In this document: piece by piece, positions 15,486 to 21,025 of the stretch
Numbering within the stretch: the first letter of the stretch is position 1
Layout: every line of letters starts with the position of its first letter
Origin: Clostridium sp.
GTDB lineage: Bacteria; Bacillota; Clostridia; Lachnospirales; Lachnospiraceae
Assembly: GCA_023664605.1 (NCBI GenBank)
Contig: JAMPFF010000005.1
Location: 44,118-108,117 of the forward strand
DNA: 64,000 nt
Direction: 5' to 3'
Translations under genes and position numbers: made by a program
The notes under the pieces: model-generated
What the model saw: only the letters and a program-made list of their open reading frames with translations
The model's database searches: none
What the model was told of the DNA's origin: nothing

Positions 15486-15519
15486 TGTGGCGTTCCTGTT
15501 CCTTTCGCTCTTCTGTCCT

Positions 15520-15733
15520 TTCACTCGCAAAGCCGCGCTGCGCGCTCCTCGTTCGATTCCATCGAACCTTTGCTCGTTACTAAGCGCAGAAAAACAAATG
15601 TCCAAGTGACGAAGTCACTTTGTGCTTTTGTTTTTCTTTTGCGTTCTCTTTCGCTCGCAAAGACGCGCTGTCGCGCTCCTTGTTCGATTTCATCGAACCT
15701 TTGCTCGTTACTAAGCGCAGAAAAACAAATGTC
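15520..15733. repeat. Two copies of an ~83-bp palindrome-rich intergenic repeat
   Basis: Copy 1 spans 15520-15602 and copy 2 spans 15650-15733, nearly identical. Each contains the inverted repeat GTTCGAT..ATCGAAC and ends in CTAAGCGCAGAAAAACAAATGTC. After each copy comes a short variable hairpin (AAGTGAC/GTCACTT after copy 1; GCTGCGCAGC after copy 2) and then TTGTTTTTCTTTTGCG, which can pair back with GCGCAGAAAAACAA. The whole thus forms stem-loops like a REP/BIME-type repeat or a terminator cassette. No transposase is nearby. Confidence 0.75.
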
Positions 15734-15826
15734 TGCTGCGCAGCCGCTTGTTTTTCTTTTGCGCTTAGTACATTATAACATTGAAGTCTTGTTCTCTGCA
15801 AGGTAAAACGAAGAGATGAGGATTAA

Positions 15827-16410
15827 TTAACCCGGTTCCGATATGCGGCTGACGCCTACGTAAATTTCGGAAATCTCATACCATGTGGGATAGTCTACAA
15901 TACCGCTTTGCGGCAGACCGAACACTTTCTGGAAGACACGTACCGCCTGCGCCGTATTCGCGCCGTATATGCCGTCGGCCGTAACAGTCGGAATCGCCGG
16001 ATAGTTCTGGGCAATCCGGTTCAACTGCTGCTGAATCTGTCTGACTTTATCGCCGGATGCTCCGATTGTCAGATTGTAGCCCGGCCAGGAAGAGGGTACG
16101 CCGGATACGCTGACAGCCGTATTGATATACATATCGCTGCCATAGTAATAACGGATAATTTCTATCGCTGAATATCCCTCGTCGCCTAAATACTTGGAAC
16201 CCCACTGGCTGAGTCCGTTGCAGCTCACTCGCTGCCCATCGCAGTAGGATGTGAAAATCGGCTGTCTGACGCCGGGTCTTGAGAGATAATTGGCAAATAT
16301 CGTATCTACCAGCCTGTCAATATTTTCATAGGTATTTCTGCCTCGAATCCACTTCTGGTCATATGCGGTGGAAGAAGTAATTGTGAAATTATAGCCCTGA
16401 TTCCGGTACC
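15827..16410 (-). pseudogene. C-terminal part of a split SpoIID-like/peptidoglycan-binding protein
   Basis: This fragment begins mid-domain at the codon Tyr of YRNQGYNFTITSS and has no proper start; the only upstream start in frame is a GTG inside the element with no ribosome site. It encodes the second half of a SpoIID-like fold (GLSQWGSKYLGDEGYSAIEI, then RYYYGSDMYI, matching the G-x-SQWG...YY pattern of SpoIID) and a C-terminal peptidoglycan-binding type 1 domain (IQQQLNRIA...DGIYGANTAQAVRVFQKVFGL). The matching N-terminal half is at 20273-20959, on the same strand and in the same frame once the 3.87-kb insert is removed. Joined length would be 421 residues. Whether it is dead or restorable by excision is the open question. 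Confidence 0.85.
16398..16410. repeat. att-like end of serine-recombinase element (gene C-terminal side)
   Basis: TGATTCCGGTACC, matching TGATTCCGCTACC at 20265-20277 in 12 of 13 positions in direct orientation. The chromosome gene continues to the left and the element begins to the right. Confidence 0.8.
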
Positions 16411-16435
16411 GCGAAGCCACCGCTGATTCAATAGT

Positions 16436-16464
16436 AAAAGCGCAAGCCGATAAACAGCCTGCGC
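16436..16464 (-). terminator. Terminator of the DUF5722-like gene
   Basis: Minus-strand stem GCGCAGGC with GCTTGCGC (one G-U pair), loop of 9 nt, then TTTT. It lies 26 bp downstream of the DUF5722-like stop and 26 bp inside the left end of the element, insulating the gene fragment beyond. Confidence 0.75.
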
Positions 16465-16489
16465 CTTATGAAATTTCACAATTTTTTCT

Positions 16490-18154
16490 TTACTGCACAA
16501 CCCCCGTACCGCTTCTCGTCCACATGATGTTCTGGCTAATCATCTCGTCGATATCCATACCGATAATCTCCGAAGCCCTTGCCTTAGCGGACGCTTCGTT
16601 TGCCGTGCCGAGGTTTTTATAAATCTCATACGCCGGTTTTTTATTACCATCCAAATCGTATATACCAAGCGCTAAATGGCTTTCCATTTCATGTGCGTCG
16701 TCGGTCTGACGGAACAGCATAAAAGCGTCTATATCAGGAATCGAAGCCGCTTTTAAATAGCCATAAGCAATGGAAGCCTCCTGCTTTTCCGTACCAAAAC
16801 TGGAAGTATAGCCGATTTCCGCAAGAGAAATGCTTCTGACTTCACCTGCCGGATTTAAGAAATGGCTCTGGTGCATATAGTTCACTAAAAGGTCGATATT
16901 CTGCATCGTAATATACGGCGACGTCAGGCTGTTCTTCACCCACACTTCCGGTCCGTTCCAGGCATACGGGTCATAAAGGGGCGAGTTATACGGATGGAAA
17001 GAAAGCCCCCAGTCGATATTGCCCTCTCTGTTTATATAATAGTTAAACTGGTCTAAATACTCTTTGGAAAGGAAACTTCCCGAATTGGACTTCCGGTTCC
17101 ATTCCTGGTCGATGGAATTGTATATCTGCACATTGGCGTTCATGCTTTTCATTTCATTATAAATAATGCGGAACGCTTTTACATAAATGCCCACGTTAAA
17201 ATCAAGGGAGGAAGAACTGGTATACCACCACTCCGTACGGGCGTTGACTTCGTTTCCTAAAATCCAGTTATCTACCTGTCCGTATCCGGTCTGCCCGGAA
17301 TAGCGCTGCCCTAAAAAGGCTCCTATGGCTTTTAAGTGGTTCGTTCCCTCTGCATCCGCCACATTGAGAGCATATCCCGGACACTCAATTTCCGCTTCCC
17401 TCGCCATCGGGTGAACCAAATCCTGTGAAAAGTCACCCTCGCCGCGGTTTAAAAGCACAAGCGTCACCTGAATGCCATAGGCGTTCAAACTCTTTATCAT
17501 GGAATCAAAGCTCGCGATTCTGCCGCCGTTAAAATAGTATGTTGCACCGTTATAAGAAAACGGAATGGCTCCCGGCTGGGATGCGTCCGAGCATATTTCG
17601 TCAACGGATATATTATAGACAACCTGCTGTATGCCAAGCGCCTGTAACTCCTCTTTGGAGGCTTTGTTCAAGTCGGGTAGAATCCCTTTGATGCCCGTCT
17701 GTCTGCGTGCGGACGTATAAGCCGCAATCGCTTCCGGGTTCGTAATATAATGCTCGTCACTCACCTGTACCATGCTGCCGCCCCGTTTTACCGCCACGAT
17801 GAACTTACGGCTCAAGTTTGATTCCGCCGTATTGTAATTGAGCGGAAAGCTGACCGAAACGGACGAAGCCGCAGTTACGGAAGCTACCATGCTGCCGGTC
17901 GTACCGTCCAAATAAACCTCGTCCGCATAAATATAATATTTGCCGTCGTCGCTCGTCGGAACGCTGCCCGCGCTTAACTGGCACACCACGTTACCGCCGG
18001 AAATCAGGCAGGATTCAATTTTGACGGGTCTGCCCGCCGCCTGCGCATCTATCGCGGCGTCAGCAGGATAAAAGCTGCCGATTATCGCTATAAAAGCGGC
18101 AATAACCACCATCCCTATTATTTTTTTCATCCTTATTCTTTTTCGATTCTTCAT
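16490..18154 (-). CDS. Secreted DUF5722-like (glycosidase-fold) protein, element cargo
   Basis: 554 residues with a basic start, a hydrophobic core (IIGMVVIAAFIAIIGSFY) and a likely signal-peptidase I site near AQA-AG, so exported. The N-terminal ~150 residues look like a beta-sandwich. The rest has the order of a TIM-barrel hydrolase: GIQQVVYNISVDEIC, then YGIQVTLVLLNRGEG, VDNWILGNEVNAR (Asn-Glu as in clan A acid/base residues), GLSFHPYNSPLYDPYAW and SLAEIGYTSS (second Glu). I recall this layout as DUF5722; substrate unknown. A good promoter (18187-18215) and its own terminator show it is an independent unit. It is inside the recombinase element. Confidence 0.7.
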   Translation of the reverse strand: MKNRKRIRMKKIIGMVVIAAFIAIIGSFYPADAAIDAQAAGRPVKIESCLISGGNVVCQLSAGSVPTSDDGKYYIYADEVYLDGTTGSMVASVTAASSVSVSFPLNYNTAESNLSRKFIVAVKRGGSMVQVSDEHYITNPEAIAAYTSARRQTGIKGILPDLNKASKEELQALGIQQVVYNISVDEICSDASQPGAIPFSYNGATYYFNGGRIASFDSMIKSLNAYGIQVTLVLLNRGEGDFSQDLVHPMAREAEIECPGYALNVADAEGTNHLKAIGAFLGQRYSGQTGYGQVDNWILGNEVNARTEWWYTSSSSLDFNVGIYVKAFRIIYNEMKSMNANVQIYNSIDQEWNRKSNSGSFLSKEYLDQFNYYINREGNIDWGLSFHPYNSPLYDPYAWNGPEVWVKNSLTSPYITMQNIDLLVNYMHQSHFLNPAGEVRSISLAEIGYTSSFGTEKQEASIAYGYLKAASIPDIDAFMLFRQTDDAHEMESHLALGIYDLDGNKKPAYEIYKNLGTANEASAKARASEIIGMDIDEMISQNIMWTRSGTGVVQ

Positions 18155-18186
18155 AACCGCTCCCCACTTCCCAGTTTATTATATGA

Positions 18187-18215
18187 ATTATACCATGCCA
18201 TCTTTTAAAAGTCAT
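18187..18215 (-). promoter_or_regulatory. Predicted promoter of the DUF5722-like gene
   Basis: Minus strand ATGACT (18210-18215), 17-nt spacer, perfect TATAAT (18187-18192), 33 bp before the start codon. The 200-bp divergent region 18155-18356 also must hold the promoter of the plus-strand recombinase operon; TTATAAAATATGATA near 18315 is its best -10 candidate. Confidence 0.6.
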
Positions 18216-18356
18216 TATCCTCTTTCCGATTTTGACATTTTTTAGTATTTTTTAACATTTTAGGCCGCCGTTTCCACCTCCGTATCTGCAAAATACACGA
18301 ATGAACCAGCCTGTTATAAAATATGATAAAAGCAAGAAATAAAATCAGGAGTTAGT

Positions 18357-18635
18357 ATGAAAACAACTCTTTATCAACAGGCTGACGCCTCCCTTGAACA
18401 GCCCCGTATTCTTTTACAGTTTCCGGAAACTTTACCCGTCTGCGCGAAAACAAGCGCCAGATGCGAAAAACACATTTCGGATAAAACGCACACCACAGAA
18501 TCCGAAAAATGCGTGGAGGATGTCCGCGCCCTTCTGCACCATGCCTTATCAGAACATCTGAAAAAATCAAAGCAGCTTAACACAGCAGACCGCTCTCCCG
18601 AAACAGAACGGCTGAACAAGGGGGAACGTATATGA
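18357..18635 (+). CDS. Small protein translationally coupled to the serine recombinase
   Basis: 92 residues, no recognised family. The start follows AGGAG (AGGAGTTAGT). It has two Cys in the first half and a helical, basic C-terminal half (RALLHHALSEHLKKSKQL). Its stop overlaps the recombinase start (ATGA), so the two are made together. Position and size suggest an accessory factor such as a recombination directionality factor, but this is inference only; a short leader with no separate role is possible. Confidence 0.6.
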   Translation: MKTTLYQQADASLEQPRILLQFPETLPVCAKTSARCEKHISDKTHTTESEKCVEDVRALLHHALSEHLKKSKQLNTADRSPETERLNKGERI

Positions 18636-20260
18636 AAAGAGTCCGTATGTTATTACGCGTCAGCTCCAACCAACAGCTCGACCCGGACGGAGATTTATCC
18701 ATACAGCGCCGCCTTGTTCTGGATTACATCGCCGGACATGAGGACTGGACTTTAGACGAAAAGGAATACTATGAGGGCAGTAACAGCGGATATAAAAACG
18801 CCGTCAGCGAAAGACAGATTTTACAGGAGGCGCTTACGGATGCCGAAAAACACGAATACGATATCCTGACCGCCTATAAGGATGACAGAATCGGCCGGCG
18901 TATGTGGGAAATCGGCGCCTATGTCATGCGCCTGAAAAGTCTGGGCGTCGATATCTATACGGTAAAAGACGGCTGCATCTCCCCGGAAAGTGATGACATT
19001 ATGGGGCAGATGATGCTGGCGCTGCGCTATGGAAACGCGCAAAAAAGCAGCTCCGATACGGGAATGCGCGTAAAAGACACGGCCAAAAAACTGGTACAGC
19101 AGGGAAAATTTATGGGCGGCGCGGCTCCTTACGGCTACCGTCTGATATATTCCGGGCAGCTTAGTAAGCACGGCCGCGCACTGCACAAACTGGAAATCGT
19201 TCCCGAACAGGCGCAGGTTATCGAATATATCTATCAACTTTCCTGTTACCGGGAACTCGGCTCTCTTAAAATCGCCAAACTTCTAAATGAAGATGACTGC
19301 TGCCGCGCACTGGCTCCCATCGATATCTGGAAAGCGGGAACGGTAAGCAGTATTTTAAAAAATCCTATCTATGCCGGTTACACCGCTTATAAACGCCGGG
19401 AGCGCGTAAACGGAAGCTGTCACAGGCTGGGTCAGGCGGACTGGATTATGGCGGATATGCCCAATGAAGACATACAGATAATCTCTCCCTCGCTCTGGAA
19501 TAAAACGCAGGAGAAACGCCGGGAGCGCGCCGATAAATACCGCCCATCTTCCGCTGCCGCCAAAACCAATACGGATATTATTACAAGAAACGACGCTATA
19601 CTGCCGCTAATCGACGTCCTCTACTGTCCTCTTTGCGGAAAAAAAATGACAAACGGCACAAAGTACCATTACTGGCATGTTAAAGGCAGTCTTGAAAAAC
19701 GCTCTAAAAAAATACGCGCCTATTGCTGTAAAGCGCCGCAAAACGGCCTGCCTTTCCACTCCCCCCTGCTGCTTCGCGCTGATGAGATAGACGATATCAT
19801 TTTAAATTGTCTCGCCGTCTGTATCGAAAGACTGCAAAAGGATGAAAATATCGCCGATATTCTTCTGCACTGCCGCCAAAACGAGCAACAGGCAAAAAAA
19901 GCGCATAAAAAGAAACTGCAAAAAGAAGCGGACAATATCGACGGACATCTGCAAGTCCTACGGGAACATATTCCCGATGCCCTTGCCGGAAACGGTCCGC
20001 TCTCTGCGTCCGAAATTGCCGCCTCCATCCACAGGCTGGAAGAAAAACGCGCTTTATTAGCTATGCAGATAAAAGAAAACGAATCCGTCTCGCAAAAGGG
20101 GAAAAAATATGATATGCCGACATGGCATCAGATTTTTCTGGAGGCGGATAAGGAAATACAACGAAGCCTTATTCGCAAGCTGGTAGAACGCATAGATGCC
20201 GATAAGGGAAATATTCTGATTCGTTTTCGGATAGGCGTAGAGTACTTTTATCCTGAATGA
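18632..20260 (+). CDS. Large serine recombinase
   Basis: 542 residues. The N-terminal resolvase domain carries the nucleophile Ser11 in LLRVSSNQQ and the catalytic Arg pair region YKDDRIGRR. The recombinase domain follows (GKFMGGAAPYGYRLIYS; GTVSSILKNPIYAGYTAYKR). A zinc ribbon has CPLCGKKM near 332 and YCCKAP near 364. A coiled coil (about 410-480) and a C-terminal RKLVERIDAD block complete the usual large serine integrase plan. It is intact and in frame. It lies directly beside the right end of the element and is the obvious enzyme for integration and, with a partner, excision. Related enzymes include SpoIVCA, which excises skin from sigK. Confidence 0.93.
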   Translation: MKRVRMLLRVSSNQQLDPDGDLSIQRRLVLDYIAGHEDWTLDEKEYYEGSNSGYKNAVSERQILQEALTDAEKHEYDILTAYKDDRIGRRMWEIGAYVMRLKSLGVDIYTVKDGCISPESDDIMGQMMLALRYGNAQKSSSDTGMRVKDTAKKLVQQGKFMGGAAPYGYRLIYSGQLSKHGRALHKLEIVPEQAQVIEYIYQLSCYRELGSLKIAKLLNEDDCCRALAPIDIWKAGTVSSILKNPIYAGYTAYKRRERVNGSCHRLGQADWIMADMPNEDIQIISPSLWNKTQEKRRERADKYRPSSAAAKTNTDIITRNDAILPLIDVLYCPLCGKKMTNGTKYHYWHVKGSLEKRSKKIRAYCCKAPQNGLPFHSPLLLRADEIDDIILNCLAVCIERLQKDENIADILLHCRQNEQQAKKAHKKKLQKEADNIDGHLQVLREHIPDALAGNGPLSASEIAASIHRLEEKRALLAMQIKENESVSQKGKKYDMPTWHQIFLEADKEIQRSLIRKLVERIDADKGNILIRFRIGVEYFYPE

Positions 20261-20264
20261 GCGG

Positions 20265-20277
20265 TGATTCCGCTACC
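20265..20277. repeat. att-like end of serine-recombinase element (gene N-terminal side)
   Basis: TGATTCCGCTACC, the partner of 16398-16410. The single mismatch (C at 20273 against G at 16406) creates the TAG stop that ends the N-terminal half of the split gene. The shared TACC (20274-20277) is the segment where strand exchange would restore a Tyr codon. Confidence 0.8.
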
Positions 20278-20959
20278 ACTCCGTATATACCCTGTTTAAC
20301 GTAAAGGAAAGAATCGCCAGAATATTGGCATAAATGGAACTCTCCGGCCAGGTCGCATAAATTTCAGACGAGGCGACATTTTTAATATAATCTTTATATC
20401 GTACATAGTAATTTGGCGCGCTGCTGTCGGAAGGAACGCCGTCGTGAACGACGACATATTCCGGAATGACGACTCTGCTTAAGACAATTTCCCCGGTTTC
20501 ATCCGTCGGTTTGATTTCATCCTCAGGAATTTTCGGCGGATATTCTCCGTAAAGCGTGTGGTCGGGAATCGTCAGCATCTCTTCTGACGCAGTCGCCGTT
20601 TCCGTCGGTGTCATCCGGATATTCTGCACGGCGGTTACGTCCGGAAGCACCTCCACGCCGGAAACCATAACCGGTTCATATCCGGGCGCCTCCACGGTTA
20701 CGTTATATTCCGAATAGGGCATCGGGGATTCCGGTGTAAGGCTGTAGGAAAGCGGCGGCGCCATAAGCTGTACCTCCTGCGCCTGACCGGATATATCCGT
20801 TTCCAGCCTCTCTAACGTTGTCTCGGGCGTTCTCGTATATGCAATGGAAATCACGGCATTCTGAATCGGTATCAGCCCGATATCCGAGGTTACATTGATT
20901 TGCAGTCCTCCGGTCTGTTCCTCCTCCGTCTGCGCAATCTTAAACGTTTCTTCGCTCAT
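20273..20959 (-). CDS. N-terminal part of a split SpoIID-like/peptidoglycan-binding protein
   Basis: 228 codons ending at a TAG created at the element boundary. Residues 1-120 form a beta-sandwich like a carboxypeptidase-regulatory domain (GLQINVTSDIG; YNVTVEAPGYEPVMVSGVEV). After a linker comes VVVHDGVPSDSSAPNYYVRY and YIKNVASSEIYATWPESSIY, the first half of a SpoIID-like domain with the position of the catalytic Glu (ASEI, compare SpoIID VxxEMP). The frame stops at ..LNRVYTEW, and the missing part continues at YRNQGYNF in the fragment ending at 16410. The start follows AGCAGG. As it stands it would make a truncated protein without the peptidoglycan-binding domain. Confidence 0.85.
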   Translation of the reverse strand: MSEETFKIAQTEEEQTGGLQINVTSDIGLIPIQNAVISIAYTRTPETTLERLETDISGQAQEVQLMAPPLSYSLTPESPMPYSEYNVTVEAPGYEPVMVSGVEVLPDVTAVQNIRMTPTETATASEEMLTIPDHTLYGEYPPKIPEDEIKPTDETGEIVLSRVVIPEYVVVHDGVPSDSSAPNYYVRYKDYIKNVASSEIYATWPESSIYANILAILSFTLNRVYTEW

Positions 20960-20996
20960 ATAATTACCTGCTTTACCCTTTTTTATCTTTCTAGTT

Positions 20997-21025
20997 ATTA
21001 TATGCAGGCATTAAGAAGTCGTCAC
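20997..21025 (-). promoter_or_regulatory. Promoter candidate of the split SpoIID-like gene
   Basis: Minus strand GTGACG (21020-21025), 17-nt spacer, TATAAT (20997-21002). The same site reads AC-N16-CATATAATA, which fits the sigma-K pattern AC-N16/17-CATANNNTA known from Bacillus. Both readings are possible from sequence alone. It overlaps the end of the upstream gene. Confidence 0.4.

Follow-up and report, generated by a model that had tools for sequence, protein, structure and literature searches.

A probable skin-type intervening element with a large serine recombinase interrupts sleC at a base reused across genera of Lachnospiraceae

In a 64,000-nucleotide stretch of DNA from a Clostridium sp. 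of the Lachnospiraceae (GenBank assembly GCA_023664605.1, contig JAMPFF010000005.1, positions 44,118 to 108,117; hereafter the window, with its genome as G000), a minus-strand gene of 421 codons is interrupted after codon 228 by 3,867 bp of DNA carrying a large serine recombinase. By its sequence matches the gene is sleC, encoding the clostridial cortex-lytic germination enzyme, and we propose that the intervening DNA is a sporulation gene-intervening element of the skin type that is excised in the mother cell, a reading to which we assign a probability of about 0.82. The selective constraint on split copies, C-terminal halves that could hardly be translated alone and promoter matches before the recombination genes all argue for programmed excision and against a fixed disruption of the gene.

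An earlier note on this DNA had described a SpoIID-like gene split by a serine-recombinase element. The two halves and the recombinase lie at the positions it gave (Table 1), and its 3.87-kb insert, whose removal was to restore 421 codons, now has exact ends. The core dinucleotide is G20276/T20275 at one end of the element and G16409/T16408 at the other, and joining the two GT cores produces TGG-TAC across the junction, in frame. The recombinase stop codon (20260) lies 15 bp, rather than 13 bp, from the junction on the N-half side. When the element ends are joined they form an inverted repeat around the GT core with 16 of 22 positions matching (shuffled mean 5.6, maximum 12, 500 shuffles). The recombinase itself contains Resolvase (58.3 bits) and Recombinase (54.2 bits) domains, both above their cut-offs, together with a zinc ribbon that falls slightly under its own (23.7 against 25.3 bits).

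On the strength of its sequence matches, the interrupted gene is better named sleC than SpoIID-like. The joined protein aligns with the solved chain 9h68_A over residues 15-418 of 421 (456 bits, E 8e-136), an entry we identified by its molecule name in the PDB, spore cortex-lytic enzyme pre-pro-form (SleC), and it is because of this full-length match that we call the gene sleC; a profile of 20 intact relatives searched against solved structures gave E 8.5e-157. What stands of the SpoIID-like description is a weak match to the SpoIID-type family PF08486 over residues 186-250, spanning the break at 228/229, which scores 18.6 bits in the window's joined protein, below the cut-off of 23, and 25.9 bits, above it, in the Parablautia intestinalis copy; the family models gave nothing stronger for SpoIID. 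The previously reported peptidoglycan-binding domain is present, as PG_binding_1 in the C-half. W228 and Y229 are invariant in 20 aligned relatives, and the break falls in a highly conserved stretch. Among the best 80 matches listed, the closest named relatives are Parablautia intestinalis (76%) and Eisenbergiella (70-74%), and copies at 87-90% identity are from metagenome-assembled genomes, mostly labelled Lachnospiraceae and one Muribaculaceae. The best 80 matches listed in a scan of named genomes were all near full-length, with no split sleC in a named strain among them. SleC is apparently the primary cortex hydrolase of C. perfringens and C. difficile, where CspB is required for its efficient cleavage (PMC3567191). 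CspB prodomain genes occur in 71 of 77 genus genomes, and SpoIVA was also found in 71, the window's own genome included in both cases; a CspB-type activation of SleC is predicted here. The same genome holds an intact sleC paralogue of 608 amino acids that scores 253 bits against the SleC chain, compared with 456 for sleC.

The genus sample comprised 77 genomes, drafts of 30 to 470 contigs, all of which were searched. The earlier note had proposed a comparison with relatives lacking the element, and had considered that the halves might always have been separate genes. sleC is one continuous gene in 54 of the 77 (three of these being cut by contig ends), so that the halves were not always separate and relatives display an empty, in-frame site. 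In 18 further genomes both halves are present but apart. The remainder consist of one genome with the C-half and an element end only (G038), two with an N-part at 67-68% identity to residue 169 and no C-part (G026:C38 and G058:C153; L066 and L065), and two, G006 and G056, with no sleC match at the level used. The break falls at the same base in all 18 split genomes, and this identity means that the split is not a product of chance. The halves are on one contig in 11 cases, 3.2 to 17.1 kb apart, and on separate contigs in seven, where the element ends suggest a single element between them. A recombinase, or the portion of it on the contig, lies near the junction inside the element in 17 of the 18. 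Precise excision would restore the frame in 17 of the 18 split copies; the exception, G014, is also the one failure when the element ends are checked by script for their G and T (24 of 25 pieces pass), a frameshift having moved its comparison one base off.

On a sleC gene tree of 72 rows the split or intact state changes at least 14 times, with 11 changes forced by well supported branches, and the split label is weakly clustered (53 of 500 shuffles were as low). Parts of the elements we call type B are 99.3% identical between G048 and G036 (7.7 kb) and 99.5% between G048 and G060 (6.2 kb), in hosts whose sleC halves differ by a synonymous divergence (dS) of 0.9-2.8, which indicates that some insertions are recent. 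The remaining parts of these elements are 88-97% alike, and the G002 element is approximately 91-97% alike. The G033 element shares 2 kb at 97% identity with an element in another genus (G424), its other aligned parts being 82-96% identical. From these identities, larger elements are still mobile and the window's type is resident.

Evidence for selection comes principally from the window's genome and its sister G034, which have the element in common. Across both halves of sleC this pair differs by 60.5 synonymous and 6.5 nonsynonymous changes, with 33 synonymous and no nonsynonymous changes in the C-half and a ratio of nonsynonymous to synonymous divergence (dN/dS) of 0.064 in the N-half; 7 nonsynonymous of 67 changes, against an assumed neutral share of 0.74, gives a binomial p of ~9e-28. 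The dS values of the recombinase (0.21), the DUF5722 cargo gene (0.27) and the sleC halves (0.20/0.30) are alike, and the element was therefore most likely already in the common ancestor of the pair, with sleC split throughout. sleC has most likely been under normal constraint while split in these two genomes, the one pair whose element and host-gene clocks were compared and found alike; other split copies may be younger. For pairs with dS 0.02-0.8, the median dN/dS of the N- and C-halves is 0.053/0.025 between split copies (4 and 3 pairs), 0.063/0.040 between intact and split copies (28 and 22 pairs) and 0.062/0.037 between intact copies (49 and 39 pairs); constraint on the split copies matches that on the intact ones. 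The aligned frames are unbroken in 17 of the 18 split copies, with the last 22 residues of G060 read as N.

These data bear directly on the alternative of a fixed disruption, in which a mobile element integrates at conserved sleC codons, sleC is dead and the paralogue covers germination. The intact paralogue, the recent type-B insertions, the frameshift in G014 and a G066 element that lacks a recombinase could all be accommodated by such a history. It is disfavoured, however, by the persistence of the split in G000 and G034 through dS 0.2-0.3 under full constraint, by the unbroken frames of 17 of 18 split copies and by the mother-cell-type promoter matches before the recombination operon, which would be unexpected at a dead site. 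We consider a fixed disruption very unlikely.

The C-halves provide a further argument. No start codon with a Shine-Dalgarno-like stretch precedes the junction in 15 of 17, and in eight no in-frame start of any kind lies ahead of the junction, six of them having the near-identical type-B end in common; G014, with its partial C-half match, is omitted from this count. That the C-half is conserved yet hardly translatable alone is best explained by its being joined to the N-half. If the halves were instead translated as two proteins, acting apart or together, we might expect both to be conserved, as they are, and the window's C-half open reading frame (ORF) could indeed start at a GTG lying 12 bases into the element. 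Against this stand the missing starts, the placement of the break between two invariant residues and the single protein encoded by relatives, and we regard two separate proteins as improbable in the extreme.

The same site is used beyond the genus. A recombinase profile was run over 397 family genomes from 334 genera, with up to three candidates per genome scored in the rows shown, and 21 recombinase loci scored better than 1e-110. A sleC-type half lies in the 1.5-kb flanks of the 12 strongest, which come from 12 different genera (our own and 11 more), while the same flanks of the nine weaker loci contain none. In one of the 12, G390, it is the sleC paralogue that is split, by a 1.95-kb element, and in another, G394, a gap of 1.1 kb separates the end of the recombinase from the C-half. 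G394 and G179 are assembled in 1 and 3 contigs, and split sites in such genomes argue against assembly artefacts as a general cause. In a quick tree built from 40 recombinases, the 27 found at a sleC-type site and two from IMG/VR contigs group into one clade of 29, the other 11 lying outside. These two contigs, L219 and L221 (68 and 145 kb), look phage-like by eye from their ORFs. Immediately behind its recombinase L219 has an inverted repeat (18/22) whose centre is AC, the GT core as it reads on the other strand; in the 160 bp inspected for L221 no such repeat was found. Named phages and plasmids contained no relative of the recombinase at 1e-60. Because the clade extends to two phage-like contigs, the elements may descend from phages that integrated at the sleC site.

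From this comparison we lean, with rather less confidence than in skin-type excision itself, towards a broader model of sleC as a common homing site in Lachnospiraceae. A single recombinase clade, found in phage-like contigs and minimal elements, would have entered it repeatedly at the same base, in the paralogue too, after which resident elements would lose all but a recombinase, a directionality factor and a small cargo, pass under sigma-E control and end up as a DNA lock on the germination enzyme.

Symmetry of the rejoined attachment site (attP) reaches at least 10/22 in 19 of 23 elements, six of these being near-identical type-B ends, and in 14 of the 23 it is higher than in any of 500 shuffles (shuffled means 5.0-6.1). 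Four elements fall short of 10/22: G014, G023, G066 and G390. G014 was kept in the count as a miss, its attP comparison being one base off through the frameshift, and the G023 miss is accounted for by two tandem elements at the sleC site (L052; 4,058 and 7,233 bp), both of which have a recombinase of their own and are symmetric (15/22) when the inner junction is used. A small ORF encoding a recurring ~KVxLxFP followed by a helix-like tail was seen by eye upstream of the recombinase in about 24 of 27 loci, and not in G047, L219 and L220. A DUF5722 gene lies inside the element in six genomes. We rejected it as a defining cargo, as it directly adjoins intact sleC, on the upstream side, in G046 and lies outside the element in G007 (L010, L049). 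Imperfect direct repeats can be seen by eye at window ~15490-15780, downstream of the sleC C-half in the interval that separates it from a DUF5717 gene.

Table 1. Features of the interrupted sleC locus, in window coordinates.
Feature	Position	Strand	Basis
sleC N-half, codons 1-228, then an element-supplied TAG	20273..20959 (coding 20276-20959)	-	homology and junction mapping
sleC C-half, codons 229-421, with PG_binding_1 domain	15827..16408	-	homology and domain search
Intervening element, 3,867 bp	16409..20275	.	same break point in 18/18 genus genomes with both halves
N-half-side junction: GT core 20275-20276 and element arm	20254..20276	.	att symmetry
C-half-side junction: GT core 16408-16409 and element arm	16408..16431	.	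two arms form inverted repeat, 16/22
Large serine recombinase, 542 aa (Resolvase, Recombinase)	18632..20260	+	domain search, clade tree
Candidate directionality factor: small ORF of 92 aa that overlaps the start of the recombinase	18357..18635	+	position and conservation
Sigma-E-like promoter match before small ORF, GAATG-N16-AATA	18299..18323	+	relaxed pattern only
Cargo gene, 554 aa, DUF5722 (PF18989)	16490..18154	-	domain search
CATATAATA, sigma-K/E-type -10 upstream of DUF5722 gene	18177..18185	-	motif match
CATATAATA, sigma-K-type -10 upstream of sleC	20996..21004	-	motif match

Promoter matches suggest when these genes would be expressed. The 90 bp upstream of sleC contain CATANNNTA, which we take to be a sigma-K -10, in 65 of 70 genomes (shuffled counts averaged 3.0 and reached at most 9; seven genomes without an aligned start were left out), with a weak sigma-K -35 AC. 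In C. difficile, sleC depends on sigma-K, and the published consensus has a -35 of ATA for sigma-E and AC for sigma-K with similar -10 sequences (PMC3789822), in agreement with the patterns used here. Eight of 25 elements have the sigma-E-like pattern [GT][AC]AT[AG]-N16-[CA]ATA at -58 to -62 relative to the small ORF (on average 0.78 and at most 4 in 1,000 shuffles), and four have its strict form, ending CATA (shuffled mean 0.18); these 25 upstream regions include near-duplicates and doubtful script-picked ORF starts (at least G047, L209, L218, L219 and L220). Among elements measured on one contig, leaving aside G066 with its missing recombinase, none of the seven above 7 kb and eight of the nine below 5.2 kb carry the match, the eight being those of G000 and G034, which are sisters, G043, G007, G029, the first G023 element, G390 and G263. 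The last was added by eye, its match standing at -60 when counted from the later of two candidate ATGs; the ninth, G033, has no sigma-E-like match.

spoIVA is a classic sigma-E gene, and since our pattern was formed after seeing some of the upstream regions, it provides the check that counts. The strict pattern lies at -55 to -58 in 17 of 18 spoIVA upstream regions (shuffled mean 0.08; 18 of the 71 genomes with SpoIVA were used), and the sigma-K -10 in none of the 18. The sigma-K -10 shows no enrichment before the recombination operon (3 of 25 against a shuffled mean of 2.0), and there a sigma-A-like promoter occurs in one of 25, G064. Separately, a sigma-K-like gene (G000:C55:30905-31522), below the model's curated cut-off, lies 13 kb before the window with CATAGAATA upstream.

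It is also conceivable that excision reflects ordinary phage-like mobility or random phase variation, untimed by sporulation. The same-clade recombinases of L219 and L221, the recent transfer evident in near-identical type-B elements, the larger elements without a sigma-E pattern and the sigma-A-like match in G064 would all be compatible with this. Against it stand the sigma-E-like match, at -58 to -62, in eight of nine elements under 5.2 kb and the nature of the target, itself a mother-cell-type gene. Moreover, the skin element of C. difficile has a sigma-A-driven recombinase gated by a sigma-E-driven directionality factor (PMC5025042), so that a vegetative recombinase promoter would not exclude sporulation timing. 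On balance we judge untimed excision to be unlikely.

Several observations nevertheless weigh against programmed excision from sleC in the mother cell. The sigma-E pattern occurs in none of the seven elements above 7 kb, was fixed after inspection of some of these upstream regions, is matched by the window's own copy in its relaxed form only and, in that form with 15-17 bp spacing, is also present in 23 of 70 sleC upstream regions, and is thus not very specific. The small ORF has no family-model match above cut-off, and its role as a directionality factor is a guess from position and conservation. The frameshift of G014 lies in the C-half of a draft genome, and the genus genomes are, as a group, drafts in many contigs. 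The G066 element in sleC has no recombinase; its sleC paralogue is also split, by an element bearing one (G066:C13 and C44; L067, L244), and the sleC element may possibly be excised in trans. Lastly, the intact 608-residue paralogue could lessen the cost of losing sleC.

Our preferred model for skin-type excision is as follows. Early in sporulation, sigma-E in the mother cell would turn on the small ORF and the recombinase, and the recombinase, with the small protein as its directionality factor, would recombine the two GT cores and release the element as a circle. sleC would thereby be made whole in the mother cell shortly before its transcription by sigma-K, allowing SleC to be produced and incorporated into the spore as a zymogen, while the forespore chromosome would retain the element and hand it on. 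The split would in this way act as a DNA lock against production of a cortex-degrading enzyme outside the terminal cell. The sporulation-timed excision suggested in the earlier note is favoured by the selection data, the C-half starts and the promoter matches, and from these we infer the excision step and its timing.

Elements of this kind are already known, with described cases in sigK, spsM, spoVFB, gerE and yabG. The closest parallel is skin in sigK (Bacillus subtilis, and skinCd of Clostridioides difficile), where a serine recombinase likewise lies inside a mother-cell gene whose frame is restored by excision. In skin the recombinase or directionality factor is reported to be under sigma-E (PMC5025042), whereas here there is a sigma-E-like sequence pattern; in addition, our target is a germination enzyme rather than a sigma factor, the elements are as small as 1.95 kb, and many different elements share one site across genera. 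The gin element in gerE (Bacillus cereus ATCC10987) resembles ours in being a non-prophage with a serine recombinase, a second factor and an att inverted repeat, and its excision is described as sporulation-timed (PMC5595907), a timing that is predicted for our element. gin differs, as described there, in having three recombinase genes, compared with one recombinase and an overlapping upstream small ORF here, and in its target and host family. The yin element of Clostridium botulinum V73 also lies in a sporulation gene; this gene, yabG, is sigma-K-regulated, as sleC is predicted to be here, and yin was seen both integrated and as an excised circle (PMC10747680). That source reports yin as unique to one isolate, whereas here recombinases of one clade use the same base in 12 genera, our own included, with one case in a sleC paralogue. 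SPbeta in spsM (PMC4191935) and vfbin in spoVFB (as named in PMC10747680) are also phage or phage-like elements in spore genes, and SPbeta is reported to be excised during sporulation, rebuilding spsM (PMC4191935). In contrast to this active prophage, the window's element consists of a recombinase, the small ORF and one cargo gene. Our literature search, whose scope excluded most subscription papers and all bioRxiv preprints, returned no paper about an element in sleC as judged by title and abstract start. Neither this target nor this host family appeared in the literature searched, and nor did a single base reused by an entire recombinase clade, elements in tandem or the splitting of a paralogue.

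If our reading is correct, a cortex-lytic germination enzyme would here be gated by programmed DNA rearrangement, the first such case to emerge from the literature searched. Genomes that seem to lack a whole sleC would nonetheless yield SleC in each of their spores, and germination as predicted from genome sequence would be mistaken for approximately a quarter of the species sampled in this genus (18 of 72 genomes with both halves present). The recombinase clade, with its one fixed site, would offer a ready set for tests of directionality, and the gradation from phage-like contigs down to minimal elements would provide a direct view of a mobile element turning into a developmental switch.

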